A DNA stretch of 64,000 nucleotides from assembly GCA_025769875.1 (NCBI GenBank), contig JAGFNK010000018.1:62001-126000 (forward strand), read 5' to 3'. Origin of the DNA: Russula earlei. Lineage: Eukaryota; Basidiomycota; Agaricomycetes; Russulales; Russulaceae. The notes under the pieces were generated by a model, which was not told the DNA's origin, ran no database searches, and saw only the letters and a list, made by a program, of their open reading frames with translations. The position numbers and the translations under genes are program-made. Positions within the stretch are counted from its first letter, which is position 1; each line of letters opens with the position of its first letter. This document shows positions 325-36,974 of this stretch, piece by piece.

Positions 325-816
325 TGTCACAAGTACCGGCTCTTCAGACCAGACCAGCAACCGGATAAGCCTACCTGGACAGACCTCACGATTCCCGCGC
401 ATCCTTATGACTAACCTAGCCTTGCATGTACCAGCACCTTCCAACGTGTCCTAGTCTCGATTGCCTCGCTACTACCTTGTGTCTGCTATTTGATATAGGA
501 TACATTGTCTATATAAACCTGTCCGTAGGAGAGAACAAGCTCTAAGCTTGTTCTCTTGTGAAATATCACTGGATTCAGCTTCCGGACTGTAGGCTTGCAG
601 GGAATCAAGCAATCGTCGCGAAATCTCTTCTATCTCCCTAAGTCTTCGAACGCGAAGACTTATCCATTGACTTTCTACTCTGTGGTACACACTAGCCTTT
701 GCTGTGTTGTCACCGAGATCCCTGAACTCTGCAAGAACTTGTTGTCTCACTCGACTCTGTGCACACATCTCGCGCATGAAACAATTTGTCAGCAACACCG
801 CCCCCAGTCGGTGACA
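325..816 (+). repeat. 5' LTR of element A1
   Basis: TG...CA bounded, 492 bp. It holds a TATA box (TATATAA, 510-516). About 20-30 bp downstream is a perfect 11-bp hairpin (531-541 pairing with 545-555, 3-nt loop), the expected transcription start region. Bases 543-554 are the exact reverse complement of the primer-binding site at 819-830. Confidence 0.93.
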
Positions 817-818
817 TT

Positions 819-830
819 AGAACAAGCTTA
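819..830 (+). promoter_or_regulatory. self-priming primer-binding site of A1
   Basis: AGAACAAGCTTA lies 2 nt inside the 5' LTR and is the exact 12-nt reverse complement of LTR bases 543-554. Those bases should lie at or near the mRNA 5' end, 30-45 bp after the TATA box. No TGG start matching a tRNA 3' end is present. The arrangement matches self-priming in Tf1/sushi-type Ty3 elements, where the mRNA 5' end folds back as the primer for minus-strand DNA. Confidence 0.8.
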
Positions 831-5953: not shown

Positions 5954-8169
5954 ATGACCTCCTCACAGAACTCCCCCACCGCTTCCACCGCTACCCTCAT
6001 ACCTACTTCCCCTTACTCTCCTACACTCATCCACCTACCACTGTCCAGAGAGCCCTCCCCTTCTATGGCGGCAACCATCAATACCAGAATACTCATCCAA
6101 CGTGCCACACAACACGCCGCGATGATCGTACAAGCACGCGAACTATGGGAAGATGACTCCCTCACTGCTATACTGAGAGCCTTTGGCAATCGGTCCCCTG
6201 CTCGAGGGACCAACTCACCTGTCAGAACCCGCAGCCCTTCCTATCATGTTCGCTCCCCCTCACCTGACCCCATTCCAATTCCCCCACGCACTACCACTCC
6301 CATCATCCAACAAGTTGAGGACGTCGTTCTACTCAACGAAAACTTCACCCCAATAGACCTCGAAAGAACTCCAACCCCCATCTATGAACCATCTGCTAAC
6401 CGCGTTCAACCCACAGAACTGGAAGAACTTGGAGAAGGATGGGAAGAAGGAGACCTTGGACTAGACTTACTAATCCCAGACCCAGGCAATGAAGACGACT
6501 GTCATGAACCATTCTCCGGAGAGGGCCCTTGAAGGACCCTTCCTTATAAGAGGAAACCCAGCCTCTATGGTGTCACCCTATTCACACGAGCAAAAGGGGT
6601 GAGTAGAGGTGTCCACAATATCGCGCGCGCATTGTTGCGCGAGCGATTCTCGGCACAATCGACATACAGCAAGCCCCACTTAAAGGCAGCCCTTCTAGCA
6701 ACAAAAGACAGTATTAGGGCCTTCCTAAAGACCCGTTGGAACGACCCTAAGAGCTCTACAAGAGGCACTAACCTAGTATCAAAGGCCCTACAATGCGTTA
6801 TTAGACCGACTCTAATAACTATAGAACGAACTATAAGGCAATACTAAGGACCTTAATAGAAATATTAGGGTCAACTCTAAGGACCCTAATAGAACTATAT
6901 AAGGGCCTTATAAGATGACACTATTCTCTAACCAAACTACAAGTCCTCAAATGACCGGCCCTAAACTAACTAACAGGAAATGAATCAGGTGCTCGCACGT
7001 GTACTAAAGCAGTGAAACACGTGGACAATGGAAGCTCTTACTCATCAAGAGGAGCCTTCTTACTCAGCAGCTTACTGAGCATGACTGAGCATGCTCAGTA
7101 AGCATCCTCCAACTTCTTACTCATTACTCTATTGTGCTTGATAACAAGGTTATGACTTGTTCCCTATTTAGCAGTTCTCCTGTAATATATAAGCGCTCAA
7201 TAAAGTAACGGACAGTCCTCAGACTGTCCATTTGTTTACGGCACTCTCTATCCCTGGGATACTCCTTTAAGGACCGTCCCCTTGTGACTATCCTGGCCCC
7301 TTCTCTGCGTGACTGCTCTACTCTCATGGTAACAGTGCCTCTCTGGTACCTGTTACTACTCTGGTCTCTACTCCTTGCCCACGCGGTCCTGGACGTCTAT
7401 CGACTCGTCTTCGAGCTTACCCCTCGCTCTTGAACTGGATAGTTCAACAGTGAGTCTTGACAACGACACACTACCCCCTTGCTTTGTCCTCCCCGACCTC
7501 ACACATGGCTTCCCCTCCTTACTGGCCACCTATGGTCCCGGATGTCCCACTCATTGCATTCCCATCCAAGCTCGAGCCGACCCTTACCCTTGTCCTCTCC
7601 TTACAAAGAAAGACGCTTTCCTATTCAAGGAAGGCCTCAGACATTCCAAAGCCATAGACAAGGCACTTAGGTTTGAACAAGACCTATCCCTAGAAGCGGA
7701 AGTACGTCGCTATCGATTCGCCATAAAGAAAGCACGACAAATGGCAAACAGCCTCGTCACTGCTTGCGAGAGATATCACGACATGGTATGGGAAATAAGA
7801 GACTCAGAAGTCAAGTTAGCTAGGGCTAACGCCAAAGCTCGTCTTGAACCACGAGTCTTATTCAGAACCATGCCCCAACTTACTGACCAACAGCACAAAG
7901 ACACTAAAGAAGCCCTCTCGGACCCATGGTACCAATTCCTCCCTCGACTCTCAGACAAATGCGCCTGGTGTCACGATGGAGGACATGACACGTTTGAATG
8001 CCCCAAGATCGCCATCTGCGTTCTTTGCAATCATCATGGACATGTAGCTGACCAATGTAGAAATCCGCATTGACGATGCAAAACCGACAAGATATGTCAA
8101 GTCCCTTGCGACCAACTCCACTTCCACATTCATCGCTGCCAATTGACCATCTTCCCTTACGTCGCTTAG
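5954..8169 (+). pseudogene. A1 ORF3: post-integrase coiled-coil and zinc-knuckle protein, split by a solo LTR
   Basis: The halves 5954-6499 and 7468-8169 join in frame when the solo LTR and one TSD are removed, giving 1248 nt, the same as A2 ORF3. The product is Ser/Pro-rich at the N-terminus, then an acidic segment (LEELGEGWEEGDLGL), a conserved HGFPSLLATYGPGCPTH block, a probable coiled coil (LEAEVRRYRFAIKKARQ...) and two tandem CCHC knuckles (CAWCHDGGHDTFEC and CVLCNHHGHVADQC) with a Cys/His-rich tail. A TGA at 8071-8073 replaces CGA of A2. Function is unknown; nucleic-acid binding is inferred from the knuckles. It resembles a second nucleocapsid. Confidence 0.85.
6500..7462 (+). repeat. 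solo LTR (963 bp) inside A1 ORF3
   Basis: A TG...CA bounded block (TGTCATGA ... CTTGACA) is flanked by a perfect 5-bp TSD ACGAC (6495-6499, 7463-7467). It contains a TATA-like ATATATAA (near 7186) and, about 20 bp downstream, a hairpin GGACAGTC-CTCA-GACTGTCC (7210-7229), the same promoter-plus-hairpin design as the other LTRs here. No internal element sequence remains, so it is a recombination relic. A related hairpin (7-bp stem) occurs at 37282-37299. The ORFs seen inside it are not supported as genes. Confidence 0.9.
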
Positions 8170-8187
8170 ACGTTAACAAGGGGGTGA

Positions 8188-8679
8188 TGTCACAAGTACC
8201 AGCTCTTCAGACTGGACCGGCAACCGGATAAGCCTACCCGGACAGACCTCACGATTCCCACACGTCCTTATGACTAACCTAGCCTCGCATGTACCAGCAC
8301 CTTCCAACGTGTCCTAGTCTCGATTGCCTCGCTACTACCTTGTGTCTGCTATTTGATATAGGATACATTGTCTATATAAACCTGTCCGTAGGAGAGAACA
8401 AGCTCTAAGCTTGTTCTCTTGTGAAATATCACTGGATTCAGCTTCCAGACTGTAGGCTTGCAGGGAATCAAGCAATCGTCACGAAATCTCTTCTATCTCT
8501 CTAAGTCTTTGAACGCGAAGACTTATCCATTGACTTTCTACTCTGCGGTACACACTAGCCTTTGCTGTGTTGTCACCGAGATCCCCGAACTCTGCGAGAA
8601 CTCATTGTCTCGCTCGACTCTGTGCGCATGTCTCCTGCATGAAACGATTTGTCAGCGACACCGCCCCCAGTCGGTGACA
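8188..8679 (+). repeat. 3' LTR of element A1, with upstream polypurine tract
   Basis: 492 bp, matching 325-816. The sequence just before it (8175-8187, AACAAGGGGGTGA) is purine-rich and is the likely plus-strand primer. The same tract precedes the 3' LTRs of A2 and C. Confidence 0.93.
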
Positions 8680-9280: not shown

Positions 9281-12200
9281 TAAGCCCAAGGTCGATGGCC
9301 AGACTAAGGGCAGCAGTAACTCGCACCGTGTACATTAGGAGAATTGCAACTATGAATGTCCCTTTCTCATTTCACACGGCACAAGGAGTGGCCACAGAAA
9401 AGGCTCTACTAGACAGTGGAGCAACAGAAAACTTCCTGGATGAAGATACTTGGAAAAGACTAGGAATAGGAAAACAAGCTCTTTGAGAACCAATGATGGT
9501 CCAAAATGTTGACAGAACAGAAAACAAGAAAGGGGAACTGAAACACTTCTGTTGGCTTAGGGTTCATTATAACCAAAGAAACAAGTTACAGAAGTTCTAC
9601 ATCACGTCCCTGGGAGGAGACCGAGTCATATTGGGGTACCCCTTCCTCTGGGAGTTTGAACCAACTATGGATTGGAAAAAGGGAGAACTTAAGGAAGGAT
9701 CCTTGTGCCTAGAAAGTGCACGACTCAAGTACCTTGACCACTATATCAAATCAAAGCGGTCAAGGAATGCGGAAGGCCCAAAGAGGACCAAGCCTTATAT
9801 ATACAAAAGACTAGTTTAGCTCAAGAATGGGCTAGAGATCAAAATTTGAAGGCTCAAAAATTAACAGAAGAAGATTTGCCCAAAGGATATCGGCGACATG
9901 CAAAAGTCTTTTCTAAGGAGGCTTCTTCACGCTTCCCTCCTAGTAGAGAAGAAGATATGAAGATAAACCTATTCCCTGATGCACCTAGATCCTTGGATTG
10001 TAAAATTTATCCTCTGTCTCAAGAAGAAAAGGAATACTTGAGGAAATATCTTGAGGAAAAACTCAACAAAGGATACATTAAACCTGGAGCCTCTAACTAT
10101 GTCTCACTGGTATTCTTTATTGGCAAAAAGGACAGTAGAGAAAAAAGGCTGATCATTGACTAAAAAATTTCCTGGACTTGATGGAACAAAACTCATACTT
10201 TTTAAAAATATCCAAGTGCGAGTTTGAGAAAAGAAGTGGGATATTATTCCAGAACTTTAAATTTGGCAGAACGAAACTATGCAGTGTGGGATAGAGAATT
10301 CTTAGCACTGGTCGCCACCCTCAAAAACTGGAGGCATCTCTTGCTTGGGTCACCTCATAAGGTAGTGGTCTTTATGGATCACAAAAACCTGATGTACTAT
10401 CGAGAACCTCAAAAACTGAGGGATCGAGTAGCAAGATATCTTCCCAGAGTGGCTCAATACAATCTGGAATTACGACACCAACCAGGGAAAAGAAATAGGG
10501 CAGATGGGCTATCATGAAGACCTGATTACAGATCAGATGTTCCAGAGAAGGAAGAAATCACCGCCTTACCAGATGAACTGTTCATTCAAGTTCTAGAAGT
10601 TACGGCTATGGAAGAAAGAGTCAAGCTTGACCAAAGAAAGGAAGAAGGAACAAGACTCCTAAAACGATGGAGAGATCACTACGAACTCAAGATAGTCAAT
10701 GGACAATTGAGGAAAGATACGGCCTTGGTAGTGACAGGAGGCATGGAAGCATATCAAGCAATCCTTCTGTTGAGATTACCACTGCTTTGGGCAGTCTGAT
10801 GTAATCACAGCCCAGTCGCGTTAACACGTCGGCTCCCACGGACCGGGCGCTCTCGGCTCACGCGCGTCGCTCACGCGTCGGATCAGCCCGGACCGGCTCA
10901 GCTCAGATGCTGCAGCCTGCATATGTTACAATGATAAGTTAATTGATGACAATCGGTAGCTACTAACAACTGATCCTTTATGATACAAGTTGGTAGTTAT
11001 GATTACTTTGCTTAGAGACGCTTTCGCGTATTTAAGAGGCACTCAATTAGCTAGATCGCTTCAGTTTTGTCTTACACAAACTGAAGTGAGTATTTACTGT
11101 TTCCTATCTTATCTATCGCATCTAATCACGCGTTGTAGATATCTTTTGATAGGTATTACTGATTTACAGTTTTGTCTTACACAAACTGAAATATCTTTTG
11201 ATAGATCTTAAGGATCTTATCGCTCTTATCATAACCTGCGCCCATCTGCTTCAACACCTTTGAGAATATCATGATGGATCGACAGCAGGACATCCAGGGT
11301 TGCACAAAACCTATACTGCAATAAGAAGAGATTATTGGTGGCCCAATCAGAGACAAGTGATTCAAAATTACGTCAAAGGGTGCGCAACATGTCAATCAAA
11401 TAAAACCATCACAAGATGAAATGAGCCACCAATATATCTGATAACGCTCAAAACAGAAGCAACCCCTTTCCAAACTATAGCTATGGACTTCATCACCAAG
11501 TTGCCGCTATCAAAAGGATACGATTCCATACTCACTATAACTGATCATGACTGCACCAAAGCAGTCATACTACTCCCCTTTAAAGAAACTATGGGAATGG
11601 AAGACCTAGCCAAAATCTATCACAAGAGAGTCTTTCTGTTTGTGGGTTTACCAAACAAAATTATTTCAGACAGAGATATTTGCTTTACGTCAAAGCTTGC
11701 CCAAGAAATTTGTTGACAACTCAAAATAGACAGGAATATGAGTACAGCATATCATCCCCAGACCGATGGGCAATCAGAAAGAACCAATCAAATGGTGGAA
11801 ACTATATTGCGGATATATTGTAATTTCCAGCAAGACAATTGGGCGGACTTGTTGCCAGTAACTCAGTACATTATTAACTCACATACCTCCAGTGCCACAC
11901 AACAGACACCATACGAGTTGTGGATGGGATTTCTCCCCAAGGCCTACCAATCAACTACAGTAGGAAACTTCCCAAAACTAGAAGAAAGAAAGGAATCATT
12001 ACAAAAGGCGAGACGGGACGCCCAGAAAGCTATCCTATTGGGGCATAGACTGCTGAAGAAGAAGATAGGGTTTAAACCTTATAAAGAAGGGGATAAAGTA
12101 TGGTTAGAAGGAAAGAACATCAAAACGTTCCAGCCCATGGCCAAACTAGCCACAAAAAGACTAGGACTGTTCAAAATCAAAGAAGTGATAAGCCCAGTAG

Positions 12201-14158
12201 CCTACAAATTACAATTACCAGATCGATGGAAGGTGCATGATGTCTTCCATGCTAACCTCTTACATCCATATCAGGAGATGGAGGAATATGGCGCAAATTA
12301 TGAAGAACTGCCACCAGATGTCGTAAATGATGAACAGGAGTGGGAACTCAAAAACATTTTGGGGTCAAGGCGTGTTGGAAGAAAGAAACAGCTGCAGTAT
12401 TACGTTTGTTGGAAGGGATACTCCTCTGCTCACAACTCTTGGGAGCCAGCCACAAATCTACACGCCCCCGACCTCATGAAAGACTTTCACAAAGCAAACC
12501 CTACAGCCATTAGGACTATAAAAACCTGCATGGAAAGCGACACTGATCCTAGTAGGCCTTCATCCCCCATTGAAGATCTTTGTCGACAACTGAGTCACAT
12601 CCATATTGACCAACTACTCCCCGTCTTCCTTGACCTTGTTGGTAACAGAATGACTATGTCTACAGATGAACGAGCCTCGCCCTCTTATCATGTCCAAACA
12701 CCTTCCCCATCTCTCCCCAACCTCGAGTACCTTGACACCGTCGTTCCCCCTGGACCTACAACGGAAGAATCGATTAGTCCTATTCCCATCACATCTAACT
12801 CCCCTACGAGTACCTACGTGGACCCCGACATCCCAGGAGAAGGGTGGGAATGCTACGACCCCGGTCAACACCTTGTCCACATCACTATCCCAAATAACTG
12901 GCATGAACTCGTCCCAGCCAAATATATTTGATGGGGTGTGGGTGGAAACCAGGGTGCAGAAGAACCATTCATCTGGGGCTGTCAAGGGAAGGACAAGTTG
13001 GTCTTTGGAGAACCCTTACATGCGCACCCTAACTACAACCTCTACCCAGAGTTCCTTCCAGAGGGTGAAGAAGAATACCCTGATGTTCTTACAGCCGACA
13101 TCCCAAATGTCCCTCTCCACATGTTCCACTCTCTCCTCACCTCTGTCACACACACATTGGGTGATGCCGGAGTCAAAGCTGAAATATGGCGCATTAACCA
13201 GCATTCCATGCAACTCGCTAGCTTGGCTCGACAAAATCAACTACTTAACGAGCGACAAAACATTATTCAGCAAGAAAGAGATCAATTGGCTCTTGATAGA
13301 GCTTGAGCGGAGGATGTCTACCAGGGAGCGCATTCTCGTCTCCGAGCAGCCAAATTCCTCCCTTGTGCACGAGAAATGTGGGCTCTTATCACGAGAGCAA
13401 ATGGCCCACGAGGCGTTCTGGAGGGTACAGGACTATGGCAAGAGGAGTTCTTCTTACCTGAGGTACAAGTCCTTGTTGCCCGCCATGTTGCAGAAAGAGT
13501 TAGAGGAGGGGCTGGAAGCGAAGATTCTCAGAATGACGAGGGAGGAGAAGCAGGACCATCTCCAAGAGCTCATGAGGAGGAAGAGATTGAGCGAGGAAAG
13601 TTTTCTCGCCCTCCGACCCCCCCTTACAATGCAGGAATGGCTAAATGGTGGCAGCTCATGTACGAACACAAGTGCCGATGGTGCAGTTGGAAGGGACATT
13701 GGGACCGACAGTGCGAAACACCCCACTATGCCTGCATCTCTCGTCGACAATGCATTGTCCCCAACAATCACAAATTCTTCCAGCCCATAGAATGGTGCAG
13801 TCATCTGAGGCCACTCTTGCCAGAAGAAAGGACCTTAAGGGGACATTTGCGAGGCACAGTAAGCGTCTTACAAGATGCAGTGGCTAATGCACAAGCAGCA
13901 TCGACCGCAGTCAATGATCTCAAGATCACCCTCACACGCACATCTTGTGCAGTAGAAGGACTCAAAGGCACACTAACGAGTACCACTGTAGAAACTTCTG
14001 CTGCAGAGCAACTTGTGGCAACTGTCTTAAATGACAGTACTATAAACCTGGATACCCCCCTTCCCTCCTTAACTCCAACCCCTATAACCTCACGCCACGC
14101 TACACCAGCTGAAGCAAGATCTGGGTCAGAGCCCCCACTTACTGGACAAGGGAGGTGA
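9277..14158 (+). pseudogene. pol: D pol polyprotein with C-terminal zinc-knuckle extension, heavily broken
   Basis: The protease is at 9277-9750 (LDSGATENF; VILGYPFL). A frameshift lies near 9770-9795. The RT N-terminal part runs to ~10163 (IYPLSQEEKEYL; SPVFFIGKKDS-like). Most of RT is deleted, jumping to a thumb remnant near 10180-10215. RNase H (YYSRTLNLAERNYAVWDREFL), integrase (H2C2 near 11262-11400; MDFI, SDRD, QSERTN) and chromodomain (near 12330-12490) follow. The same frame then runs, through TGA at 12929 and 13304, into a Pro-rich, coiled-coil and CCHC (CRWCSWKGHWDRQC) extension ending 14158. Other TGA stops: 9484, 10515, 11417, 11714. The extension matches the fused tail of element B. 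Confidence 0.87.
10768..11256 (+). repeat. solo LTR (489 bp) in D integrase
   Basis: TGTTGAGA ... TTCAACA is bounded by CCTTC (10763-10767) and CCTTT (11257-11261), a 4/5 TSD. Removing it with one TSD restores the integrase reading frame (LREYHDG). It contains two copies of an inverted repeat around TTTTGTCTTACACAAA (11060 and 11168 regions), comparable to the promoter hairpins of other LTRs here. Confidence 0.82.
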
Positions 14159-20331: not shown

Positions 20332-23300
20332 GAACACCTAAGTCGACGGCCTGGCTTAGGAAGAATAGTGTGTTGCAAGTGTACATTAGAAGACTGAATG
20401 CTATGAATATTCCATTCACTTTCGTCACTGCACACACAAAGGCCGAGGAATCTGCTCTACTGGACAGTGGAGCAACAGAGAACTTCATTGATCACTCAGC
20501 TTGGAAAAGACTGAAGATTGGGAAACAAGAACTACATGAACCTATGTTAGTACAAAACGTCGACGGAACCCAGAATAAGCAAGGGGAACTCACCCACTAC
20601 TGCTGGCTTCGCATCCGATATAAGGAGAAGGAGAGCTTGCAAAGGTTCTATCTCACAGATTTAGGAACGGATCGAGTCATCCTGGGATATCCCTTCCTAT
20701 ATGAATTCGACCCCGCCATCAACTGGAAGAAAGGACAGGACAGCTGATGGAAGGAATGGTACAGATTGAGACTGCTCGATACAAGTACCTGGATCTCTAT
20801 GTCGCAAAACTCCAAAAGTGAGCACGAGATGAAAACCAACAATTGAAGAAAGGGGAAGCCATTTACCTACAAAAGACGACTATTGCTCAGAAGTGGGCCC
20901 AGCAGTCGATTAAACCACAGGAAGGAGAGGATCCCCTTGCCAATGTTCCAAAGCAATTCCACCGCTTTGCAGATGTCTTCTCAGAAGAGAAGTCCCAGAG
21001 GTTCCCACCACCAAGGGAACCAGACATGCAGATAGAGCTGTTACCTGACACACCAAAGGAACTAAACTGCAAAGTGTACCCCCTAACACGAGATGAGCGA
21101 GAATACCTCAAGAAATTCCTAGCTGATGAAGTAGAGAAGCGATACATCACTCCAGGTCCATCCAGCTACACATCTCCAGTGTTCTTCATTGGCAAGAAGG
21201 ACAGCAAGGAGAAGAGGATCATTGTAGACTATCGACGACTAAATCAGTGGACCAGACGAGACAATGAACCTTTACCGCATCTGGAACAAGAGGTGGAAAG
21301 ACTCCGAGGGAAAAAGGTCTTCTCCAAATTCAATATACAATGGGGATACAATAATGTGCGGCTGGCAGAAGGAGATCGCTGGAAGGCAGCCTTCAAGATG
21401 CCATATGGAACCTACCTGCCCAACGTCATGTATTTTGGGCTCAAGAACGCACCAGCCTTCTTTACTAGGCTGATGAGAAGAGACTTTGATGACTGGCTGG
21501 ACCAATGGGCAGAATACACGGTCAACTATCTGGATGACTTTGGAATTGCCACGGGGGACAGTCCTGAACAACTAGAAATCCATGAGCAATGTGTCAACGA
21601 ACTACTCACACTGATGCAGAAGAAGTCATACTTCCTGAAACCCCAGAAATGCCAGTTCATGGTGCGAAAACTAACCATGCTAGGATGGGACATAGACGAA
21701 GGGAAGATGAAGATTGAGGCCTCCAAAGTCCGAGGAATCACGGACTGGCCTCGGGAAATCAAAGACATACACGAAGTGCGCAAAGTCATGGGAGTCCTCA
21801 GTTACAATAGGGCTTTCATTTGAGGATTCAGTCAGATTGCTCGACCCATCATTGCCTTGACAAAGAAAGGGGTGCCATTTGAATGGACCCAAGAATGCAA
21901 AGATGCTCTGGAATGACTTATCCAGATAGTATCTTCTGACCCTGTCCTGCTCCATCCTGATGAGGAGCGACCCTTTGAACTGGAAGGAGACACGTCCAAT
22001 TATGCCATTGGAGCAGTATTATTCCAGAAGGACGAACAAGGAAAGAGGAGGCCAATAGGTTACTTCTCAGCAGCCTTGAAACAAGCAGAGAAGAACTACG
22101 ACATATGGGACAAAGAGTTCTTAGCCATGGTGCGAGCCTTGAAACACTGGCGACACCTGCTCATGGGAGCAAAGCATAAGGTGGTGGTCTATACAGACCA
22201 TGCGAACCTGTTGCATTACCGACACCCTCAGCGAATAAATGGTCAAGTGGCAAGATACATTACCTTCTTGGCGGACTTTGACTTAGAATTGAAACATCAG
22301 GCAGGGGCAAGGAATAAAGCAGATGCCCTGTCAAGGAGACCTGACCTTGACAATGGACAAGGGGATAAAGAAGAAGTGGTCGCGCTACCTGACCATCTTT
22401 TTATTCAAGTAATGCACACTGCTGCATTGGAAGAACGAATAAAGAACCAACAAGGGGAAGAAAGACACCGATTAAAGTTACTTGATTGGGTACAGAGACA
22501 CCGACTGGAGAAGCGACATAACTTATGGTGGAAGAATGAAGCCTTGGTGGTTACAGGTGACGAAGGAACCCACAGGACGTTACTGGAACAGTATCATGAC
22601 AGTCCCACAGCAGGACACCCAGGGAAAGCTAAAACATTACTGGGAATGATGCGATACTACTGGTGGCCCACCATAAGACGCTTTGTCGACCGATATGTGG
22701 AAGGATGCGCAATTTGCCAAAGTAACAAGTCAGACACTCATCCAAATCGACCTCCCTTGTATCCCATTCCACCGGAAGAAGGGGCTACTCCCTTCTCAAC
22801 TGTCAGCATGGACTTTGTGGTTGAATTGCTGAAGTCAAAGGGATGCGACAGTATATTGACTGTCACTGACCATGATTGTACTAAAGGCGTCATCTTGCTT
22901 CCTTGCAAAGAAGAAATGGATGCAGAAGAGCTAGCACAGCTCTACAAGGACAGAATATTCCCATTTGTGGGAGTACCAAGCAAGATCATATCCGATCGAG
23001 ATAAACTAATAAGTTCCAAGTTCATTAGGGAACTTTGCGACCAGCTGCATATCAAACAGAATATCAGCACTGCCTACCATCCCCAGACAGATGGACAATC
23101 AGAAAGAACGAATCAGACAATGGAAACATCGCTAAGAATCTTTTGCAACCACCAACGAGATGATTGGGTGGATTGGCTGCCTCTGGTGCAATACACGATG
23201 AATTCTAACGTTTCAGAGACAACCAGACAATCCCCTTTCTTCTTATGGATGGGCTTTACGCCCAAAGCACACCAGCCAAATCGGGGAAGCAAGATACCAA

Positions 23301-25576
23301 GAATAGACAATTGGAAAGTCCGGATCCAGGAAGCGAGATCACAGGCACAAGAAGCGATGAAGATCGCTTCCCTAATGTGGAAGCGAAGAAGTAGTTTCCA
23401 ACCTTATCAGAAAGGAGAAAGGGTATGGCTCGACAGCACCAACCTAAAGATGACACATCCTACAGTGAAACTACACCCAAAACGATATGGGCCCTTTGAA
23501 ATCACGGAGGTGATTAGTCTGGTGACATACAGATTGGATCTCCCTAGCCGCTGGAGGATCCATAACGTGTTTCATGCCTCCTTATTAACACCTTACAAGG
23601 AAACCGAGGAGCATGGGGCCAACTACACCAATCCAGAAGCAGAATTGGTGGAAGGAGAAGAGGAATATGAAGTAGCAACGATTTTAGGTTCGAGACGAAC
23701 TGGAAGGAGGAAACAACTGGAGTATCAAGTCCGGTGGGAAGGGTACTCCGAAGCCCATGACTCTTGGGAGCCAGTAGAGAACATCAAAGCGTCTAGACTA
23801 ATAGGGGAATATCACAGAAGGAACCCCACAGCCATACGGGTTATAAAAGTCCAGCGAAAGATGCCCTCTACTTCCTCATCCCCATATCATCGCTCACAAA
23901 TGTCCCAAACTCCCACTAACGAAATCATTCCCCAATCCGACCTCTCTGGTGCAGAGGGGCCACTTGAAATCACCACTCCTAATGCTTCCCTCCTCGCCTT
24001 CTTCCAAAAAATGGATGGACATAGCACTGGAGAAGGAGAAGCAGATATGCGTCCTCTCGAATTTGGACCCCCTGCTGACCAAGTCGACGTCCAGCCTGGG
24101 GATTGGGAAGAGACGTCCCCTACCAGCACTCTTGACCAGGATACCCACCCTGGAGAGCCTTGGGTACGATGGGACGCTGACAGACACCACACAGGGATTG
24201 ACATCCCTGATGGCATGACTTGGGGCAACAAACCGGCCAGGTATGTGGCCTATGACGTTGCCTTGGGAGAGCCGAGAGTGAGGGGGAAGAATGGAGAAGG
24301 CCATGCAGACTATGGCGAGATCCTCCAGGCCACCCCTTGCTATAACCTCTATAACTATGGCCAAGACGAACATGACTTAGACTGCTTTGACACAGAAAGG
24401 CAGTTTGAAGGGCACTGGAGACAGACCCTCTACCTGCTAGGCGACTATGGGCTGCAGGCAGAAATCTACCGCTTAGACCATCTTTACACCTTACAAGAGA
24501 CGCTGGAAGCTAACTATAAGGTGCTCGAAGAAGAAGAGAAGCAGCTGCGCTACAAGCTCAGCAAGTACCTAGCCAAGAAGCGAGGAGTAGAGAGAGGCAG
24601 GGCTGAAGCCAAGGAGAGAATGGCGGCAGCCAAAGTACGCTCACGTTGTTGGGAGTTCATTGAAGCAGGCTGTAGCCAGGGAGAAACCCCTCCAGGTGTC
24701 TGGGCTGAAGAACTCCTCACCAACTATCGGGCTGGGCAGCCCACTCCCCCTCTACCCATCTTCGTCCCTCAGCTGCCATTGGCAGACATCACTCAGGGGT
24801 ATGCTACCCCCGACCCAGAACCAGTACCAGCCAGCCCCACACCTACGACGGTGCTAGGGTATTCAGAAGAGGAGATGGGCGTCCTCCAAACCATGTCCGG
24901 TATGCGCCTTCGAGGAGGAGCAGGATTGGAAGCATCACCAAACCCTTCCCCCCAGAGCTCTATCTATTACCATTCCTATAGCAGCAGTGGGGAAGCATCT
25001 ACTGCAACGGCTGACTTCATTCCAGAGCCTCAGCAACTGAACATGATAGAAGGGAGGAGGAAAAGGAACCGATGCAAGTATTGTGGCGAGATAGGACATT
25101 TTGACAAGTACTGTCCCCTACCCCACCAATATTGCCACGACCAACTGGCAGCAGACGCTGCCTCACATTGCCTAGTGCCTCCCTATCATCGCAGCTATGC
25201 CCCAGTCAGATCATGCCCCTTTCACCGAGGATGGGAACTGGGACACCCGAGCAGGAAGAGGAAGTCCGACCAGGAGAGGGAGGACACGGCTAACCCACGC
25301 ATCTTGCAGGTAGCGAAAGGAGAAGGGTCCAGGACCTTTCAAGAACCTTTCACTACGACTCCTCTTCGCTCAGACACACCTCCAGTCCGGAGGTTACCTA
25401 GGGACTCTGACAGACTCCCACAGATCATGTCTCCTTCAGCCACCGCTAAGGAGTCAGAGGCGATAGTGGCCTTAGCATTGGCTGCCTATGAGGCAGCAGA
25501 AGAAGGCCGATACACCTTCACCGCATCACCTCCTCCCCTTGATGATGATGGCGTTGACCCCACCACTCGATTTTAG
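20328..25576 (+). pseudogene. pol: B pol polyprotein fused to C-terminal coiled-coil/zinc-knuckle domain
   Basis: Protease (LDSGATENF), RT (KFNIQWGYNNVRL; YLDD near 21525), RNase H (to ~22330), integrase (YHDSPTAGHPG zinc finger; SMDF, SDRD, QSERTN), chromodomain (YEVATILGSRRTG ... VRWEGYSEAHDSW near 23665-23815). A further ~570 residues follow in the same frame: Pro/Ser-rich, coiled coil (near 24490-24640) and CCHC (CKYCGEIGHFDKYC near 25073). Breaks: a 5-bp duplication near 20737 shifts the frame, and TGA at 20819, 21821 and 21914. From 22076 to 25576 the frame is fully open (1166 codons). Confidence 0.9.
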
Positions 25577-25618
25577 AATCGTTGGTGTGTGGGACCACCA
25601 ATCTGAAGGAGGGGTAAT

Positions 25619-26111
25619 TGTCACAAGCACCGGTCCCTCGGACCGAATTGGCAACCGGACAAGCCTACCCAGACAAGCCTCATGATTCCCGTGTGTCCTT
25701 ATGACTCATTCAGCCTCGCATGTACCACTACTTTCCAGCGTGTTCCAGTCTTGATCGTCTTGTTGTTACCGCATGTCTACTATTTGATATAGGACACAGT
25801 TGTCTATATAAGCCTGTCAGTAACAGAGAACAAGCCCTAAGCTTGTTCTCTTGTGAATATCACTGGATTCTAGCTTCGGGACTGTAGGCTTGCAGGGAAT
25901 CAAGCAAACGACTCAGAAACTTCTTCCAACCTGTAAGTCTTCGAACGCGAAGACTTATCTGTCATCTCTCCACTCCGCGGTACACACTAGCCTTCGCTGT
26001 GTTGTCACCGAGATCCCCGACCTTCGCGAGAACTCGTCGTCTCGCTCAACTCAGTGCGTACGTCTCGCGCGTGAATCGATTTGTCAGCGACACCACCCCC
26101 AGTCGGTGACA
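25619..26111 (+). repeat. 5' LTR of A2
   Basis: 493 bp, TG...CA, TATA near 25806. Bases 25838-25849 (TAAGCTTGTTCT) pair with the primer-binding site AGAACAAGCTTA at 26114-26125. Confidence 0.93.
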
Positions 26112-26113
26112 TT

Positions 26114-26125
26114 AGAACAAGCTTA
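26114..26125 (+). promoter_or_regulatory. self-priming primer-binding site of A2
   Basis: Perfect 12-nt reverse complement of 25838-25849, 2 nt inside the LTR, as in A1. Confidence 0.8.
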
Positions 26126-26186: not shown

Positions 26187-27896
26187 ATGACTACAACTCG
26201 AGACTGGAAGACCAAAGGGTACCAAGTCCCAACCATTGAAGGACTGGCTGCCCTCAAATGCCCCTTTGAGCTACTGCCTGACCAAGAGAAAAACGTCCCC
26301 AGCATAACTATGTTTGACGATGGTGTCGAATTCTACACAATACAGAAAGACAGCGTACCATGGACTGGGTACTATGCTAACTGGATGGGTGCCAAAGTTG
26401 CCCTGGGTCACCTCTACGGCCTTTGGTTCGAAATCGAAAGGCGAGGAGACTCGTGGGAAGCGACATGCGTCGCTCGACCGGCTTTTAGACTTCAACAGAG
26501 TCCCCTCCGAGGCATCAATATTACCACACTGACAGCCTCTGGAGCACCCCTCCCTAGGTCTAGAGCTCTGAGCCTCGCCCCAACGCCAGGACCGGCCCCC
26601 ACCACCCACGCTCCAATGGAGCTCGAACCAACGACAACGACGAACGTTTTCGTCGCCGCCGCCAACCCTGACCCCGTCCAACCACAACCCGCATCATCTG
26701 GGACGGCACAACCCCCCACTCGCGCCTCATTCCCTGGAATGGGAGGCCGCGGAATACGACCCCCGAGCCCTGACCCCAACCCTGACGACTACGACACTCG
26801 CGCAGATCGCGACCGCAATGGACACGGCCCCGACAATGGAAAACTTGAGGGAATTCCCCCCGAGTTTTTTAACGGCGATTGCGCGCGGACACACGCATTC
26901 CTAGTTGCGTTCAACAGGTTCATGTCCATGAACCACAACAGCAAAATTGCCAGAGACCCGATCAAAAAGTGTGCTTATTTCCTCTCACTGATGAAAGGAC
27001 CCAAAGTGGAAGGATGGCTCGAAGCCATGGATCAGTGGCTTGAAGACGTACAAAACGACCCCACTAATATTCCACTCGGGCTGACAGCGTGGGAAGCCAT
27101 GCAACAGCAATTCCATCACACATTCACCAACTACGCGGAACACGAGAAGGCCCAAGATCGACTCAAAGAATTGAAAATGAAAGATAGCCTGCTTGACAAC
27201 TATATATCTGAATTCCAACTGCTGGCCAGGCGTGCAGGACTTGATGTCAATGAACCAACGGTCATGAGACTATTTGCGTGGGGACTCCCATGATCCTTGG
27301 TCGAATCGTGCCTCGATCTCGAAGACCCCACCTCTTTTATGGACTGGGTTGCAGCAGCACAGAAACATCATAGGGTCTGGATGCGCAAACGCGCAATTTT
27401 ATCCGACCATTCCAGCACACGCGGACGCAACCTCAACCAACCTCAAAACAACAGACCTTGGGGACGACTCGTCAACTCGGCCTGGGCCAACCGCGGGAAC
27501 AACCAAAGCAACGCCACACCCGCACGTCCACGTCTCCCACCGCGCGACCCAAACGCGATGGATACCAGCGCAGGCGCCGCTCACAAGGCAGTCACCGAGG
27601 CCGAGAAACAAAAGCATTGCGAAGAAGGTCGATGCTTCCACTGTTCTCTCCGAGGACACCTGGCTCGCGACTGCCCCACGAAACCGAAATGCGAGACGAC
27701 TCACGCGCGTGCCGCAAACACGACCACTACCACATCCGAATCCTCTGTTGTGGAAGTAATTGAAGAAAGCACAGCCGACAGAGTCGCGAACGCAGCAAAG
27801 GCAGCAAAGGCGCTTTTGGTAGAAGAGAGGGAAGCCTTTATTAAAGCCTTGATGGGAGACGAAGAGGACAAAGAACAGGATTTTTCGGACGCTTGA
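26187..27896 (+). pseudogene. gag: A2 gag, one nonsense codon
   Basis: 569 codons from ATG 26187 (MTTTRDWKTKGYQVP). Capsid region as in A1 (KKCAYFLSLMKGPKVEGW). The zinc knuckle is intact here: CFHCSLRGHLARDC. Its single defect is TGA at 27291-27293, where A1 has TGG. The gag stop is 27894-27896. Confidence 0.92.
27878..27884 (+). promoter_or_regulatory. predicted -1 frameshift site, gag-pol of A2
   Basis: G GAT TTT lies 9 nt before the gag stop. The -1 frame is open from 27884 into pol. No ATG is available at the start of pol (A1 ATG 2597 is ACG here), which favours frameshifting over reinitiation. Confidence 0.7.
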
Positions 27897-30800
27897 GCAT
27901 AACGGCAATTGCTCGAGCTTTAGGTATCGATTCCATGTATAAGTCTCAAAGAAAGTCAATATCAGTGATGACAACTATTTACATTGGATCGAACAAAGCC
28001 GAAAGAAAAGCCCTAATAGATAGTGGGGCTACTGAATGCTTCGTATCTCCCAAGACGATAAAAGAACTACACCTACAAACGAAAGAATTAATCCCGGCCA
28101 GAAACGTCAAAAACGTCGACGGAACACTCAATCGTTCAGGAAAAGTTACTCAAACAGTCCAACTGGAATTGAAACTACTGGGCCAAAAACATATACATCA
28201 ATTCCTGGTCGCAGATATAGGACAAGACGACATCATCCTGGGATATCCGTTCCTAGAGTCAACAAACCCGAGAATAAATTGGTCCAAGGGAACCATCATG
28301 GGAAGAATCACCCTCCAAGGAGACCAAGAAACTCCAGCATGGATCAAAGCGTTAACGGACTGGGAAGAAGGTGACGAACTATGGTTACAAACTCAAATAC
28401 GTAAAACTACCATAGCGCAACAACTGGCAGAATCACAGGTACAAGGAAAAACACAAACTTGGCAAGAAATAGTCCCCCTTCAATACCATCAATATGGACA
28501 AGTATTCATGGAACAAGAATCAGAAAGGTTCCCCGGGCCAAGAAAATGGGATCATGCTATCGACTTGAAATCAGACGCTCCAACAACGATCAACTGTAGG
28601 GTATATCCCCTCTCACCGAAAGAAAAGGAAGAACAAGGAAAATTCCTCGAACAAAATTTACGACTTAAACGGATAAGAAGATCCAATTCGCCATACGCCA
28701 GTGGATTCTTCCTTATAAAAAAGAAAGACGGAAAATTTCGACCAGTACAAGACTATAGAAATCTGAACAAATGGACAATACCCAACATATATCCACTGCC
28801 TTTAATTCCAGAACTTATCCATGCTCTAGCAGGAAAAGAACTTTTCACCAAATTCAACGTCAGATGGGGTTACAATAACATTCGAATCAAAGAAGGAGAC
28901 GAATGGAAAGCAGCCTTCAAAACTAGCGATGGACTATTCGAACCTACAGTAATGTTCTTCAGACTAACAAATTCCCCAGCCACCTTTCAAACCATGATGG
29001 ACGACATTTTTCAAGAAGAACTCGCACAAGGATGGTTAAAAATCTACATGGACGACATCATCATTGCCACACAAAATGACGAGACAGAACACGCGCTCAA
29101 AGTCAACCACATACTGTCCAAATTGAAACAACACGATCTCTATCTTAAACCAGAAAAATGTCAATTCCACAAGAAAAAGGTAGAATACCTTGGAGTAATC
29201 ATAGGAGAAGGAAAAATAACTATGGACCCTGTCAAAGTCAAAGGGATTAAAGACTGGCCAACACCGTCAACACTAAAAGAAGTCAGAAGTTTCCTAGGAT
29301 TCTGTAACTTCTATTGAAACTTTATACCTAACTTTTCCATAAAAGCAAGACCACTAAACAACTTAACAAAAAAGAACAAACAGTGGGAATGGACAACGAA
29401 GGAAGACCAAGCCTTTCAAATCCTAAAAGAAACCTGCGTATCCTACCCAGTACTCCGCACTCCAAATTGGACGAAACAATTCATCTTAGACACCGACGTG
29501 TCGGGATTCGCTATAGGAGCAGTCATATCCCAAGAGTATGAAGATGGTTTACACCCAATCGCATACTATTCTAGGACACTACTAGATGCAGAAAGGAACT
29601 ACGATGCTCACGACAAAGAACTAGCAGCAGTAATATTCAGATTAAAAAGTGGACGACCATTCTTCCTGGGAGCCAATAAACCAGTTAGAATAAGAACAGA
29701 CCACAAAAATCTTACATATTTTAAAGAACCACAAAAACTAACAGGACGACAAGCCAGATGGATGCAATATATGCAAGACTACAACATCACCATGGAACAT
29801 GTCCCTGGACATACACATACAATCGCTGACACACTTTCACGTCGCAAAGACCTTAACAAGGGGGTAGAAGAACAAAAAACCACGTTACTACCACCCGAAA
29901 TCCTCGCACGAAAAACCTACTTACCAGACAAACCCGACAAGCGACGAGAAATCCTGAGACTATTTCACGACACTCCCTTCGCAGGACACCCTGGAATAGC
30001 CAACACCTGGGACTTAGTCAAACAACATTATGAAGGACCTAGACTACAACAATTCGTAGAACAATACGTCAAAGGTTGCGCCAAGTGTCAAGAGTCCAAA
30101 ACCAACATACCCAGAAAGAAAGCCACGACTTTTCCACTCGACACACATGTTGAACAAGGCCCCTTTCAATATGTATCGATGGACCTCATTACCAATCTAC
30201 CCAGATCAGAAGGATTCGACAGTATCCTCACCATAGTCGATCAAGGATGTTCCAAAGCGACAAAGTTCATCCCATGTAACAAAACAATCGATGGAACAGG
30301 TGTTGCACACGAGTATCTAAAACACCTCGTGCCCTGGTTTGGTATCCCCAAAAGAATCATCTCCGACAGAGACCCTCGATTCGCATCAAACTTCTCCAAA
30401 GCCATATGCAAAAATCTGGGGATCAAACAAAACATGTCCACCGCATTCCACCCCCAAACAGATGGACAAACAGAACAAATGAACGCGTGGCTAGAACAAT
30501 ACCTAAGACCCTGGACCACGACTCATCCTCATTCCTGGGCAAAAATGCTTCCTCTGGCAGAATACGCACACAACTCGTGGAAACATGAAACATCACAGAG
30601 ATCACCACACGAACTCCTCATGAGGTTCAGACCCCAAATCAACATCAACTTGGAAGACAACAATGTACCCTCAGCCACCGATCATCTAAAATTACTAGAA
30701 GAAGCAAGACTAGATGCTCAACAACTTCTAGAACGCAAACAACAACCCCTAAAACCAGACATCGAGGAAATGGAAGAAGGAACCCTCGTATGGCTAGAAG

Positions 30801-31204
30801 CAAAGAACCTCAAAACACGAGGAACACGCAAGTTAATGCCCAAAAGATATGGTCCATTCCCTATCACGAAAAGAATTTCCAAAGTCGCGTATCAATTACA
30901 ACTTCCGCCATCGATGAAGATACACAACGTTTTCCACGTCAACCTACTTCTCCCCTATAAGGAGACAGAAGAATATGGCACGCCGTTTACACGACCTCCA
31001 CCAACCGTAGAAAACGAGGAAGAATACGAAATTGAAGCAATTTTAGACACAAGAAGATTCGGATGGACATGTAAACTTCAATACCTCATACACTGGAAAG
31101 GATATCCGGCATCAGATGACTCATGGGTCGACCATCGTGACCTCAACACCCCAGAACTTCTAAAAGAATACTACTCCGCTTCGGCTGGACGACCCCAAAT
31201 ATAA
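27884..31204 (+). pseudogene. pol: A2 pol polyprotein, one nonsense codon
   Basis: 1106 codons, identical in length to A1 pol. Protease (DSGATECF), RT (YMDD near 29048), RNase H, integrase with H2C2 finger, SMDL, SDRD and QTEQMN, and chromodomain (YEIEAILDTRRFG ... IHWKGYPASDDSW). TGA at 29315-29317 replaces CGA of A1 within the RT/RNase H connection (CNFYRNF). All DDE residues are visible. Confidence 0.93.
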
Positions 31205-31254: not shown

Positions 31255-32502
31255 ATGTCTTCCACTCAGAACTCCCCCACTGCTTCCTCTACCACTCTAG
31301 TACCCACTCCACCTTACTCCCCCACTCTCATCCACCTACCGCTGTCTCGAGAACCATCCCCCTCGACGGCAGCCACTATTAACACCAGACTACTCATCTG
31401 ACACGCTGCACAACACACCGCCATGATTGTCCAAGCACGCGAACTATGGGAGGACGACTCCCTTACCACGATACTACGTGCCTTCGGCAATCGATCTCCC
31501 ACTCTAGGAACCAATTCGCCTATCAGGACTCGCAGCCCGTCTTATCACGTCCGCACTCCCTCACCTGACCCTATCCCAATTCCCCCACGCACCACTACAC
31601 CCATCATCTGACAAGTCGAAAACATCGTTTTACTCAACAAAAATTTCGCCCCGATAAACCTCGAAAGGACACCACCTCCCGTCTATGAACCACCCACCAA
31701 CCATGAACAGCGCTCAGAACTAGAGGAACTTGGAGAAGGATGGGAAGAAGGAGACCTAGGACTGGAGTTACTAATCCCTGATCCAGGAAACGAAGAGGAT
31801 ACTCTTCCCCCTCGTTTCGTCCTTCCTGACCTTACACATGGCTTCCCCTCCCTCCTAGCCACCTACAGCCCCGGATGTCCCACTCACTGCATTCCCATTC
31901 GAGCTCGAGCTGACCCCTACCCTCGCCCTCTTCTTACACAGAAGGACGCTTTCCTATTCAAAGAAGGTCTCCAACATACTAAGGCTATAGACAAGGCACT
32001 TAGGTTCGAACAGGACCTGTCACTGGAAGCCGAAGTACGTCGCTATCGGTTTGCCATAAAGAAAACACGACAGATGGCAAACTCCCTTGTCGCTGCCCGA
32101 GAAAGATATCACGACATGGTATGGGAAGTAAGAGACTCGGAAATCAAGCTAGCCAGAGCTAACGCCAAGGCCCGCCTCGAACCACGAGTCTTGTTCGGGA
32201 CCATGCCTCAACTCACCGAACAAGAGCACCAAGATGCTAAACAAGCTATCCAAGATCCATGGTATCAATTCTCCCCCCGACTCTCCAACAAATGCGCTTG
32301 GTGCCACGACGGAGGACATGATACCTATGAATGTTCCAAAATTGCCATCTGTATCCTCTGCAATTGTCAAGGACACATAGCTGACTATTGCCGAAGCCCT
32401 CACCGACGATGCAGACCCGAGAAAATATGTCGAGTCCCTCGCAATCAAATCCACTTTCATACCCACCACTGTCGCTCTACCATCCAACCCTACGTTGCCT
32501 AG
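31255..32502 (+). pseudogene. A2 ORF3: post-integrase coiled-coil and double zinc-knuckle protein
   Basis: 416 codons from ATG 31255, 51 nt after the pol stop and in a different frame from pol, so simple readthrough cannot express it. The layout is Pro/Ser-rich, GEGWEEGDLGLELLIPDP, HGFPSLLATY, coiled coil, CCHC (CAWCHDGGHDTYEC), CCHC (CILCNCQGHIADYC) and a His/Cys tail. TGA stops occur at 31399-31401 and 31609-31611. It ends TAG just before the polypurine tract. Function unknown. Confidence 0.85.
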
Positions 32503-32520
32503 ACGTTAACAAGGGGGTGA

Positions 32521-33013
32521 TGTCACAAGCACCGGTCCCTCGGACTGAATTGGCAACCGGACAAGCCTACCCGGACAAGCCTCACGATTCCCACACGTCC
32601 TTATGACTCATTCAGCCTCGCATGTACCACTACTTTCCAGCGTGTTCCAGTCTTGATTGTCTCGTTGTTACCGCATGTCTACTATTTGATATAGGACACA
32701 GTTGTCTATATAAGCCTGTCAGTAACAGAGAACAAGCCCTAAGCTTGTTCTCTTGTGAATATCACTGGATTCTAGCTTCGGGACTGTAGGCTTGCAGGGA
32801 ATCAAGCAAACGACTCAGAAACTTCTTCCAACCTGTAAGTCTTCGAACGCGAAGACTTATCTGTCATCTCTCCACTCCGCGGTACACACTAGCCTTCGCT
32901 GTGTTGTCACCGAGATCCCCGACCTTCGCGAGAACTCGTCGTCTCGCTCAACTCAGTGCGTACGTCTCGCGCGTGAATCGATTTGTCAGCGACACCGCCC
33001 CCAGTCGGTGACA
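32521..33013 (+). repeat. 3' LTR of A2 with polypurine tract upstream
   Basis: 493 bp. Preceded by AACAAGGGGGTGA (32508-32520). Confidence 0.93.
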
Positions 33014-33017
33014 GTAA

Positions 33018-35017: not shown

Positions 35018-36247
35018 ATGTCTTCCACTCCTAACTCTCCTACTCCTACGTCTGCCACACTAGTCTCATCTTGACCTCCTTCCCTCACACTCATACCACT
35101 CGCACCTTCCAGAGGACCATCCCCATCAACCGCCACTACTGCTAACATTAGACTCATAGTAAGACGTGCAGCACAACATACTGCTATGGTGGTTCAAGCC
35201 CACGCACTCTGGAACGACAACTCTCTGTCAACTATAATCCATGCCTTTGGCAACAGGTCCCCTACCCTAAGGATGACTAGCCCACTTAGGTCTCGCAGCC
35301 CCTCATACCATGTCCACTCACCCTCCCCAGACCCAATTCCAATTCCCCCTTGCACCAAAAACACTGTGCTTCTTGATGCGAACTTCCAACCAACAGGGGA
35401 AGCAACACCTCCTCCCACCTACATTCCTCCCCCTACCAATGCACCAATCAACCAACCTACAGAACTAGAAGAACTAGGAGAAGGTTGGGAAGAAGGAGAT
35501 TTAGGGCTCAACATACTCATTCCTGACCCAGGAAATGAAGACAACACCATTCCTCCCTGATTCATCTTACCTGACCTTGTCCATGGTTTCCCCATCATAA
35601 TGGCCACCTATGGCCCAGGTTGCCCCACTCACAGAATAGCCATTCAAGCTAAAGCAGACCCATACCCACTTCCCCTTCTGACAAAAAAGGATGCCTTCCT
35701 TTTTCAAAATGGGTTGAGACATAGTAAGGCCATAGATGAGGCCATCAGATTCGAAGAAGACCTATCTTTGGAGGCTGAAGTTCGCAGATATAGATTCGCT
35801 ATAAGAAAGATGCACCTGATGGTGAACCAACTGGCGACAGCCAGAGAACAATACCACGATATGGTCTGGGAGGTACGAGACTCGGAGGTAAAACTCGCCA
35901 GAGCTAATGCCAACGCTCATCTTGAACCCCAAGTCCTCTTTCAATCTATGCCCCGCCTCACCAATGAGGAACACAAAGAAGCAAAGGAGGCCATCTTAGA
36001 CCCATGGTATCAGTTCCGCCCATGTCTTGCCAACAAGTGTACCTGGTGCAGCGATGGAGGACACGATACCTTCGAATGTCCCAAGATAGCCATATGCATT
36101 CTCTGCAGTAACCAAGGACATCTCGCCAAACACTGCAGGATGCCTCATCATTGCTGCAAACCTCACAAAGTCTGCCGAGTCCCTAGAGATCAAATTCACT
36201 ACCACCTTCATCGCTGCAGATCTTCCATTATTCCCTACAGTGGTTAA
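35018..36247 (+). pseudogene. element C ORF3 (coiled-coil, double zinc knuckle)
   Basis: ATG 35018, 77 nt after the pol stop, ~409 codons. Same order of blocks as A1/A2: SPSPDPIPIPP, LEELGEGWEEGDLGL, HGFPIIMATYGPGCPTH, coiled coil (LEAEVRRYRFAIRKMH), CTWCSDGGHDTFEC, CILCSNQGHLAKHC and a Cys/His tail. TGA at 35072-35074 and 35558-35560. The zinc knuckles and coiled coil survive although the element is old. Confidence 0.85.
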
Positions 36248-36266
36248 GACGTTAACAAGGGGGTGA

Positions 36267-36760
36267 TGTTACAGAACTGGTACTTTGGACCAGACCAGCA
36301 ACTGGGCTAGCCTACCCAGATGGACCTCGCGTCCACCTCGCGTTTTATGACTCGTTTGACAAACTCATGTATTCCTGTATGTTCCAGCATGTTCTCATCT
36401 CGATTGCCTTGATGTACCCTCAAGGACACCATTTGATATAGTGTTCCTCATGTATATAAGACTGCTAGTTGACGATAACAAGCCCTAAGCTTGTTCTCTT
36501 GTGAAATATCACTGAATTCAGCTTCGGGACTGTAGGCTTGCAGGGAATCAAGCAATCATCTTAGAAACCTCTCCACCTCTCTGAGCCTTTGAACACAAAG
36601 ACTTACTCATTGTCTTTCCACTCCACGGTACACACTAGCCTTTGCTGTGTTGTCACCAAGATCCCCAAACCCCACGAGAACTCATCGTCTCACTCAACTC
36701 AAGTGTGCATGTCCCATGTGTGAAACAATTTGTCAACGACACCTCCCCCAGTCAGTGACA
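36267..36760 (+). repeat. 3' LTR of element C
   Basis: 494 bp, TGTTACAG ... CAGTGACA, homologous to the A1/A2 LTRs. Preceded by the polypurine tract AACAAGGGGGTGA. It contains TATATAAG and TAAGCTTGTTCT, the same promoter and self-priming block. Confidence 0.92.
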
Positions 36761-36974
36761 TGAGCCTTAAGCTCGACTTAGTTTGCCAATCCCAATCAGT
36801 TGACTCCTACCCCATCTGCAGAGCCCCTCTCATCTTGTTGCCATGCTCTAGAAGGATCTAACACTCCTTCCCCTCCACAAGTACTGCTTGCTTGACTCAA
36901 GCATATCTGCATTGGTAGGACGTGTTTATAGACACATCCATGAATCTTATTTAAGGCACTCTGGAGCCTTAACA
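36761..36974 (+). repeat. B-family LTR, 3' part only (E)
   Basis: Matches the last ~214 bp of the element B LTR (GAGCCTTAAGCTCGACTTAG ... GGAGCCTTAACA). Its 5' part was separated by insertion of element C and lies left of the window. No primer-binding site follows it, so it is a 3' or solo LTR. Confidence 0.85.

Follow-up and report, generated by a model that had tools for sequence, protein, structure and literature searches.

Ty3 retrotransposon copies in a 64,000-nucleotide stretch of the Russula earlei genome (the window; contig JAGFNK010000018.1, positions 62,001 to 126,000) carry, between the integrase chromodomain and the 3' LTR, a coding region with a shared zinc motif that is under purifying selection in four families (A, B, D, and E). 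By the usual description, chromoviruses end at the chromodomain or shortly beyond it. Five Ty3 copies in the window (A1, A2, B, C, and D) have coding sequence 3' of this domain, either as a separate ORF of ∼414 codons in the A/C family (about 410 to 415 codons in A1, A2, and C) or as an in-frame tail of pol in B, D, and a family recognized elsewhere in the genome, E (Table 1). The LTRs flank gag and pol in A1 and A2, with LTR pairs and Retrotrans_gag matches above cut-off, and the chromodomain (PF00385) scored above cut-off in A2 and B and was recognized by eye from the translation in D and E.

Table 1. Features of the Ty3 copies in the window (window coordinates)
Feature	Position	Strand	Remark
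A1 third ORF, 5' part	5954..6499	+	Ser/Pro-rich segment and GEGW/IPD acidic block
Insertion in A1 third ORF	6500..7462	.	TGTCA...TGACA; 5-bp duplication ACGAC
A1 third ORF, 3' part	7463..8169	+	Constrained block, coiled coil, knuckles, PH-C-C tail; one internal stop
A1 third-ORF CCHC knuckles	7960 and 8017	+	
A2 third ORF	31255..32502	+	415 codons, with two premature in-frame stops; knuckles at 32293 and 32350
C third ORF (3'-only copy)	35018..36247	+	Two in-frame stops before the terminal stop; knuckles at 36038 and 36095
B pol tail after chromodomain	23822..25576	+	584 residues; knuckle and PH-C-C tail at 25073
B predicted long helix/coiled coil	24395..24628	+	Model residues 85-162; model and heptad scan
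D open part of pol tail	13307..14158	+	Knuckle and PH-C-C tail at 13673
A2 chromodomain (PF00385)	31025..31174	+	End of pol (pol ORF 29498-31204)
B chromodomain (PF00385)	23666..23821	+	
A1 5' LTR	325..819	+	94.7% identical to 3' LTR; BLAST boundary
A1 3' LTR	8181..8679	+	Start 8181 or 8188 depending on pairing; BLAST boundary
A2 5' LTR	25611..26114	+	BLAST boundary
A2 3' LTR	32514..33016	+	97.4% identical to 5' LTR; start 32521 if A1-paired; BLAST boundary
C 3' LTR	36260..36764	+	BLAST boundary
A2 ordinary gag knuckle	27633..27674	+	Without PH-C-C tail
Gag-knuckle counterparts	2340, 20050, 9023		A1 (stop inside), B, and D (assigned by position), respectively

Rereading the frames of all five copies reproduced the ORF coordinates given in a first-pass annotation of the window, as well as its description of split and fused forms, the latter being seen in B, in E, and, judging from the frame, in D. 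The third ORFs of A2 and C stop less than 20 nt from the 3' LTR (11 and 12 nt, respectively, by BLAST boundaries, or 18 nt with the LTR start taken from pairing with A1). In A1, the ORF is open from its start as far as an insertion of ∼963 bp and resumes in a second part (7468-8169); considering the TGTCA and TGACA ends of the insertion and the ACGAC target duplication on both sides, we read it as a solo LTR of another element. In B, a single 1,166-residue frame (22076-25576) covers RNase H, integrase, the chromodomain, and then the 3' region, which forms its tail. The knuckle ORF of D (13376-14158) is in frame with the chromodomain ORF (11738-12931), the window copy being broken between them, and two other D matches sit in open frames known by their length (1,726 and 1,833 codons). 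For E, a 1,693-codon open frame (copy C343) starts just 5' of the protease, passes through reverse transcriptase, and includes the module region. Elsewhere in the window, we noted a stop-free, 1,329-codon Copia-type polyprotein frame on the minus strand (52087-56073; RVT_2, E = 1e-58), a protein kinase-like ORF (44738-45589; PF00069, E = 4.7e-29), and, on the plus strand, an ORF with a Crinkler effector N-terminal domain (56995-57639; PF20147, E = 2.3e-21), with a weakly kinase-like ORF (58368-59210) after it.

The CCHC knuckle pattern C-x2-C-x4-H-x4-C is present in the region of A, B, C, and D and also in E. It occurs 12 times on the plus strand of the window (once with a stop inside), always within these elements, and never on the minus strand, indicating that it is not a product of chance. 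From one alignment, the zinc motif common to A/C, B, D, and E reads C-x2-C-x3-GH-x4-C-x2-PH-x2-C-x(4-10)-C, which is longer than an ordinary knuckle and unlike these elements' own gag knuckles; in A/C, a second CCHC knuckle directly precedes it. An ordinary gag knuckle is additionally present in all four elements with gag in view (A1, A2, B, and D). In A and B, the two families compared in this way, gag and the 3' region showed nothing similar beyond the knuckle, and a duplication of gag was therefore rejected as the source of the module; the region had initially been called gag-like, a term that does not hold in the sense of gag-derived. In the A2 gag ORF (26187-27293), the Retrotrans_gag match (residues 284-367) is preceded by 283 residues, and no further Pfam match reached an E value of 0.01 or better.

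Relationships between the families were assessed with the tail that follows the knuckle (one representative per family, six pairs) and with hhalign. The tail score was reached by 1 of 2,000 shuffles for B-D, 6 for E-D, 9 for E-B, and 13 for A-D, and the signal was weak for A-E and A-B (170 and 707 of 2,000, respectively); when the module tails were set against three gag-knuckle tails (twelve comparisons), the score was reached each time by no fewer than 284 of 2,000 shuffles. The hhalign values in the zinc part were 94.9% for E-D, 94.0% for B-D, 69.5% for A-D, 66.1% for A-E, and 26.8% for A-B, while the best E-B alignment (95.9%) fell in a different block, 60 columns before the coiled coil, which was the sole block alignable between families outside the zinc part. 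Based on these two sets of results, common descent of the module appears well supported among B, D, and E, and it is probable, albeit not proven, that the A/C module shares that descent. The block order described as the same in all copies was not supported as a sign of common descent over the whole length, as only the zinc part and the B-E block align; no homology of the GEGW/IPD block was found between A and B. In D, moreover, the best-scoring heptad window is found 3' of the zinc motif, contrary to the proposed order of coiled coil followed by knuckle.

Matches to an already known domain, which the first-pass annotation had named as a refuting result, were limited to subthreshold zinc-knuckle hits. 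The best E values against the zf-CCHC profile, below cut-off, were 0.083 (B) and 0.12 (E), with no match to this profile for A; among PDB structures, retroviral nucleocapsids matched at the knuckles, again below threshold (1a6b, E = 0.016; 2bl6, E = 0.046), and nothing meaningful was found in NCBIfam. Other subthreshold Pfam matches, e.g., SLATT_4 on the helical part of A (E = 0.0037), were taken as chance. The predicted coiled coil is partly shown, with a confident helix in B only: the B model contains a long helix (residues 85 to 162), has pLDDT block means of 80 to 96 over residues 111 to 160 only, and is good for this one helix, while the A model (mean pLDDT of 32.5) was unusable. The heptad scan yielded one window per family and carried no chance control. 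No transmembrane stretch was found, the maximum 19-residue hydropathy being 0.68 to 0.85 (over the full region in A and B and over part of it in E and D).

The module is under purifying selection in all four families. Of the 30 best-scoring A/C loci fetched, 10 had an uninterrupted ORF, and their pooled dN/dS was 0.066 (pS, 0.477; pN, 0.049), with pairwise values of 0.03 to 0.15 (dS of 0.07 to 1.25 in ten of the pairs) and 92, 44, and 336 variable columns at codon positions 1, 2, and 3, respectively. Picking open copies does not by itself reduce dN/dS. As a control, the 3' end of integrase plus the chromodomain in nine of the same copies (286 alignment columns) gave 0.079, with looser values in its last two bins (0.26, and >1 over the final few codons). 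Wrong-frame readings of the A ORF gave 1.9, 2.9, 1.5, and 4.2, and one antisense frame gave 0.13, a low value that would follow from third positions in common with the real frame. The A2-C comparison yielded 0.088 at a pS of 0.72, and two decayed sister copies (L012 and L013) had a pN/pS of 0.62. In the decayed A/C and E matches, stops were mostly TGA, as expected from C-to-T changes in CGA codons.

Similarly, dN/dS was 0.072 in E (10 copies, chosen stop-free), 0.22 in B (17 copies), and 0.18 in D (the window copy and 4 stop-free copies). For B, 23 of 30 fetched loci were examined, six of which were left out for stops or because a fixed offset missed the frame. Within the region, constraint was concentrated in blocks, including the zinc stretch of E (0.024 to 0.029), which is its tightest block, the zinc block of D (0.073), and two 60-residue blocks of B (0.016 and 0.055); the tightest block of A comprised residues 201 to 240 (pN, 0.001), before the heptad region. 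Several blocks had a pS of >0.5, making their ratios rough. Taken together, ratios well below 1 in four families agree with the first-pass proposal of a real, selected zinc-knuckle product 3' of the chromodomain and are far from the near-neutral values named there as grounds for abandoning it.

To describe the distribution of the module, the genome (66.6 Mb, 1,374 contigs) was searched with each family. The A/C ORF returned at least 150 matches (the best 150 of 512 candidates), at least 74 of which lay 3.5 to 8.5 kb downstream of an A-family gag/protease match in the same orientation, 54 of these 74 at 4.49 to 4.64 kb; in the control comparisons, 3 of the A/C matches listed had such a match on the opposite strand and 1 had it downstream. 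With the B tail as query, 81 matches were obtained (75 of 892 candidates scored), and its 70-residue zinc part gave at least 150 B-type matches at 83 to 100% identity. The D query produced 149 rows, consisting of 77 D copies or fragments, one B copy, and 71 matches confined to residues 69 to 162, i.e., the zinc part, at 27 to 40% identity; reading six of these 71 led to the fourth family, E, which itself returned 134 matches. Homologues therefore exist in further families, contrary to the refuting case of none in other elements that the earlier annotation had named. In protein databases, the only relative found was a Russula earlei "hypothetical" protein (P0007), 66 to 68% identical over 41 to 45% of the query, with no alignment in its second half. 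No relative of the B region was found among 6,748 candidates, nor were relatives found in two scans of viral contigs. Transposons are often omitted from gene models.

The module was absent from the loci read of another chromodomain family. In the eight best chromodomain loci (L001 to L008), reading each 3.2-kb locus in its three sense frames revealed no knuckle, and in seven of them pol stops 14 residues past the chromodomain; in L008, pol continues about 80 residues beyond the stop of its seven relatives. The at least 150 chromodomain matches listed all scored ≥65.5 bits, versus 34 bits for A2 and 46 bits for B, indicating that this module-less family, known from eight loci read, is probably abundant. 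Hence, the module is a trait of certain families and not of every Ty3 element in the genome, and the first-pass statement that all Ty3 elements carry it stands for the five copies in the window and fails genome-wide. Integrase identity was 40 to 53% among the carriers A, B, D, and E (92% for A1 versus A2) and 39 to 43% between carriers and the module-less family, values that, in this unrooted comparison, would be compatible with a single carrier clade.

How the separate A/C ORF is translated was approached from its start. The ATG lies 34 to 60 nt past the pol stop in eight uninterrupted copies and 123 nt past it in L038, whose frame ends early. Since the frame of the ORF relative to pol varies among uninterrupted copies, read-through or a fixed frameshift from pol was rejected as a general mechanism. 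A conserved splice acceptor before the start was not supported, as the CAG present in certain copies is absent from others (e.g., L022 and L024), and a TATA box at the pol stop was not conserved. The spacer between pol and the ORF is free of ATG in nine of the ten sequences inspected, L028 being the exception with one, and all ten have a purine at position -3 of the start codon; these features would suit reinitiation after pol, although they are suggestive only.

The reading we favor, to which we give an even chance of being correct, is that the module has an accessory role in the particle or the integration complex, as a nucleocapsid-like, nucleic-acid-binding helper of integrase. The coiled coil would oligomerize this protein, and nucleic acid would be bound by the zinc module at its C terminus, in which a C/H-rich extension follows one or two CCHC knuckles. 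This reading is favored by purifying selection in four families, the similarity of the tails beyond the knuckle, the weak knuckle matches to retroviral nucleocapsids, the long helix of the B model, and the open frame shared with protease and reverse transcriptase in one E copy. In B, D, and E, the product would be made as the C-terminal tail of Pol and would reach the particle along with integrase. In A/C, where the ORF stands apart and has its own start codon, the product would most likely be a second nucleocapsid-like chaperone or tether and may serve reverse transcription or the integration complex beside the chromodomain. A role in the particle or the integration complex seems likelier than one in the host cytoplasm because a Pol tail would be made and packaged together with integrase. 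A second nucleocapsid or a partner of integrase, as first suggested, still fits best. A selected zinc-knuckle product is supported; an origin from gag is not. Against a helper of integrase, the nucleocapsid and zf-CCHC matches are subthreshold, one chromodomain family does without the module, the A-E and A-B tails are only weakly similar, the A model is unusable, and the best heptad window of D is on the unexpected side of the zinc motif. In addition, the tightest block of A (residues 201 to 240) is outside the zinc part and resembles nothing known, and the main function may reside in this block. We put forward more tentatively, as rather doubtful in its entirety, that these elements constitute a fungal chromovirus group whose second nucleocapsid sits on the integrase side. 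It would represent a new protein family, distinguished by a zinc module of its own (a knuckle with the PH-C-C extension) and an oligomerizing coiled coil, and would be deployed as a Pol tail in some families and, in another, as a separately translated protein acting in trans with the chromodomain integrase.

Some plant transposons encode extra proteins that protect them against host silencing, and the strong selection on the module, which lacks a link to a known replication step, would also be explained if its product shielded the element from methylation or RNAi and were kept for that purpose. The separate A/C ORF could have its own expression level, and the predominance of TGA among the stops of decayed copies implies that the genome mutates these elements. 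Nevertheless, we regard such counter-defense as unlikely, given that the Pol tail of B and E (and of D, by frame length) ties the product to the particle, that zinc knuckles and a coiled coil suit nucleic-acid packaging, and that no anti-silencing protein appeared among the library matches. The module could also be a C-terminal targeting extension of integrase that binds chromatin or DNA and selects the insertion site together with the chromodomain. It follows the chromodomain in A, B, and E, and it is in frame with integrase in B, in E, and, judged by frame length in other copies, in D. A/C would then have to supply it in trans, and the separate ORF of that family, whose frame relative to pol is not constant across uninterrupted copies, makes targeting an improbable account as well.

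The remaining explanations are far weaker. The position between pol and the 3' LTR is that of env in retroviruses, and envelope-like ORFs occur there in some of the bdelloid elements described in PMC5408684; an envelope-like protein for cell-to-cell passage is nonetheless very improbable here, as the hydropathy maxima above reveal no membrane segment in the portions scanned, zinc knuckles are found instead, and the region is fused to pol in other families. Stops or an insertion in all three A/C copies of the window would fit a nonfunctional remnant or a chance open frame, an idea with practically no likelihood left: it is refuted by the dN/dS of about 0.07 that uninterrupted copies show and by the pattern of their variable sites over codon positions. 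A selected zinc-bearing module beyond the chromodomain, occurring both as a Pol tail and as a free protein, would bring an additional component into the machinery with which abundant fungal retrotransposons replicate or integrate and would offer a way to test packaging or targeting of the integration complex. The module is also a target for annotation, its Russula earlei relative P0007 being labeled a hypothetical protein.

Additional ORFs without an assigned function have been drawn in fungal Ty3 elements before, some chromodomain elements among them (PMC2864245, Figure 3 legend). The present ORF may correspond to these; the accessible text on that additional ORF contains nothing on knuckles, position, or selection. 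The words zinc and knuckle are absent from the accessible text of PMC3248453 and PMC5348765, and no description of a zinc-knuckle module after a fungal chromodomain was found in the portions available of the open-access literature consulted (PMC2864245, PMC3248453, PMC5348765, PMC5408684, and PMC11963269). The ORF3s of bdelloid rotifers (PMC5408684) are likewise third ORFs beside gag and pol, several of them non-envelope and shared across lineages, but they are of envelope, GDSL, DEDDy, coiled-coil, or transmembrane types, and neither "zinc" nor "CCHC" occurs in the text available. Plant Retand elements with TRP28 ORFs (PMC11963269) likewise carry an additional ORF after pol and before the 3' LTR, for which DNA binding is presumed; unlike the module, it is antisense, belongs to a nonchromovirus lineage, and has a different domain. 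Compared with retroviral nucleocapsid, the module lies after integrase rather than in gag next to capsid, its knuckle is followed by PH-x2-C...C, an ordinary gag knuckle is present as well, and the profile matches are subthreshold. The likeness is in the knuckle itself: retroviral and Ty3 nucleocapsids have the same C-x2-C-x4-H-x4-C pattern, which stands two in tandem in A/C, where the knuckles weakly match the profile of a lentiviral nucleocapsid (2bl6, E = 0.046).
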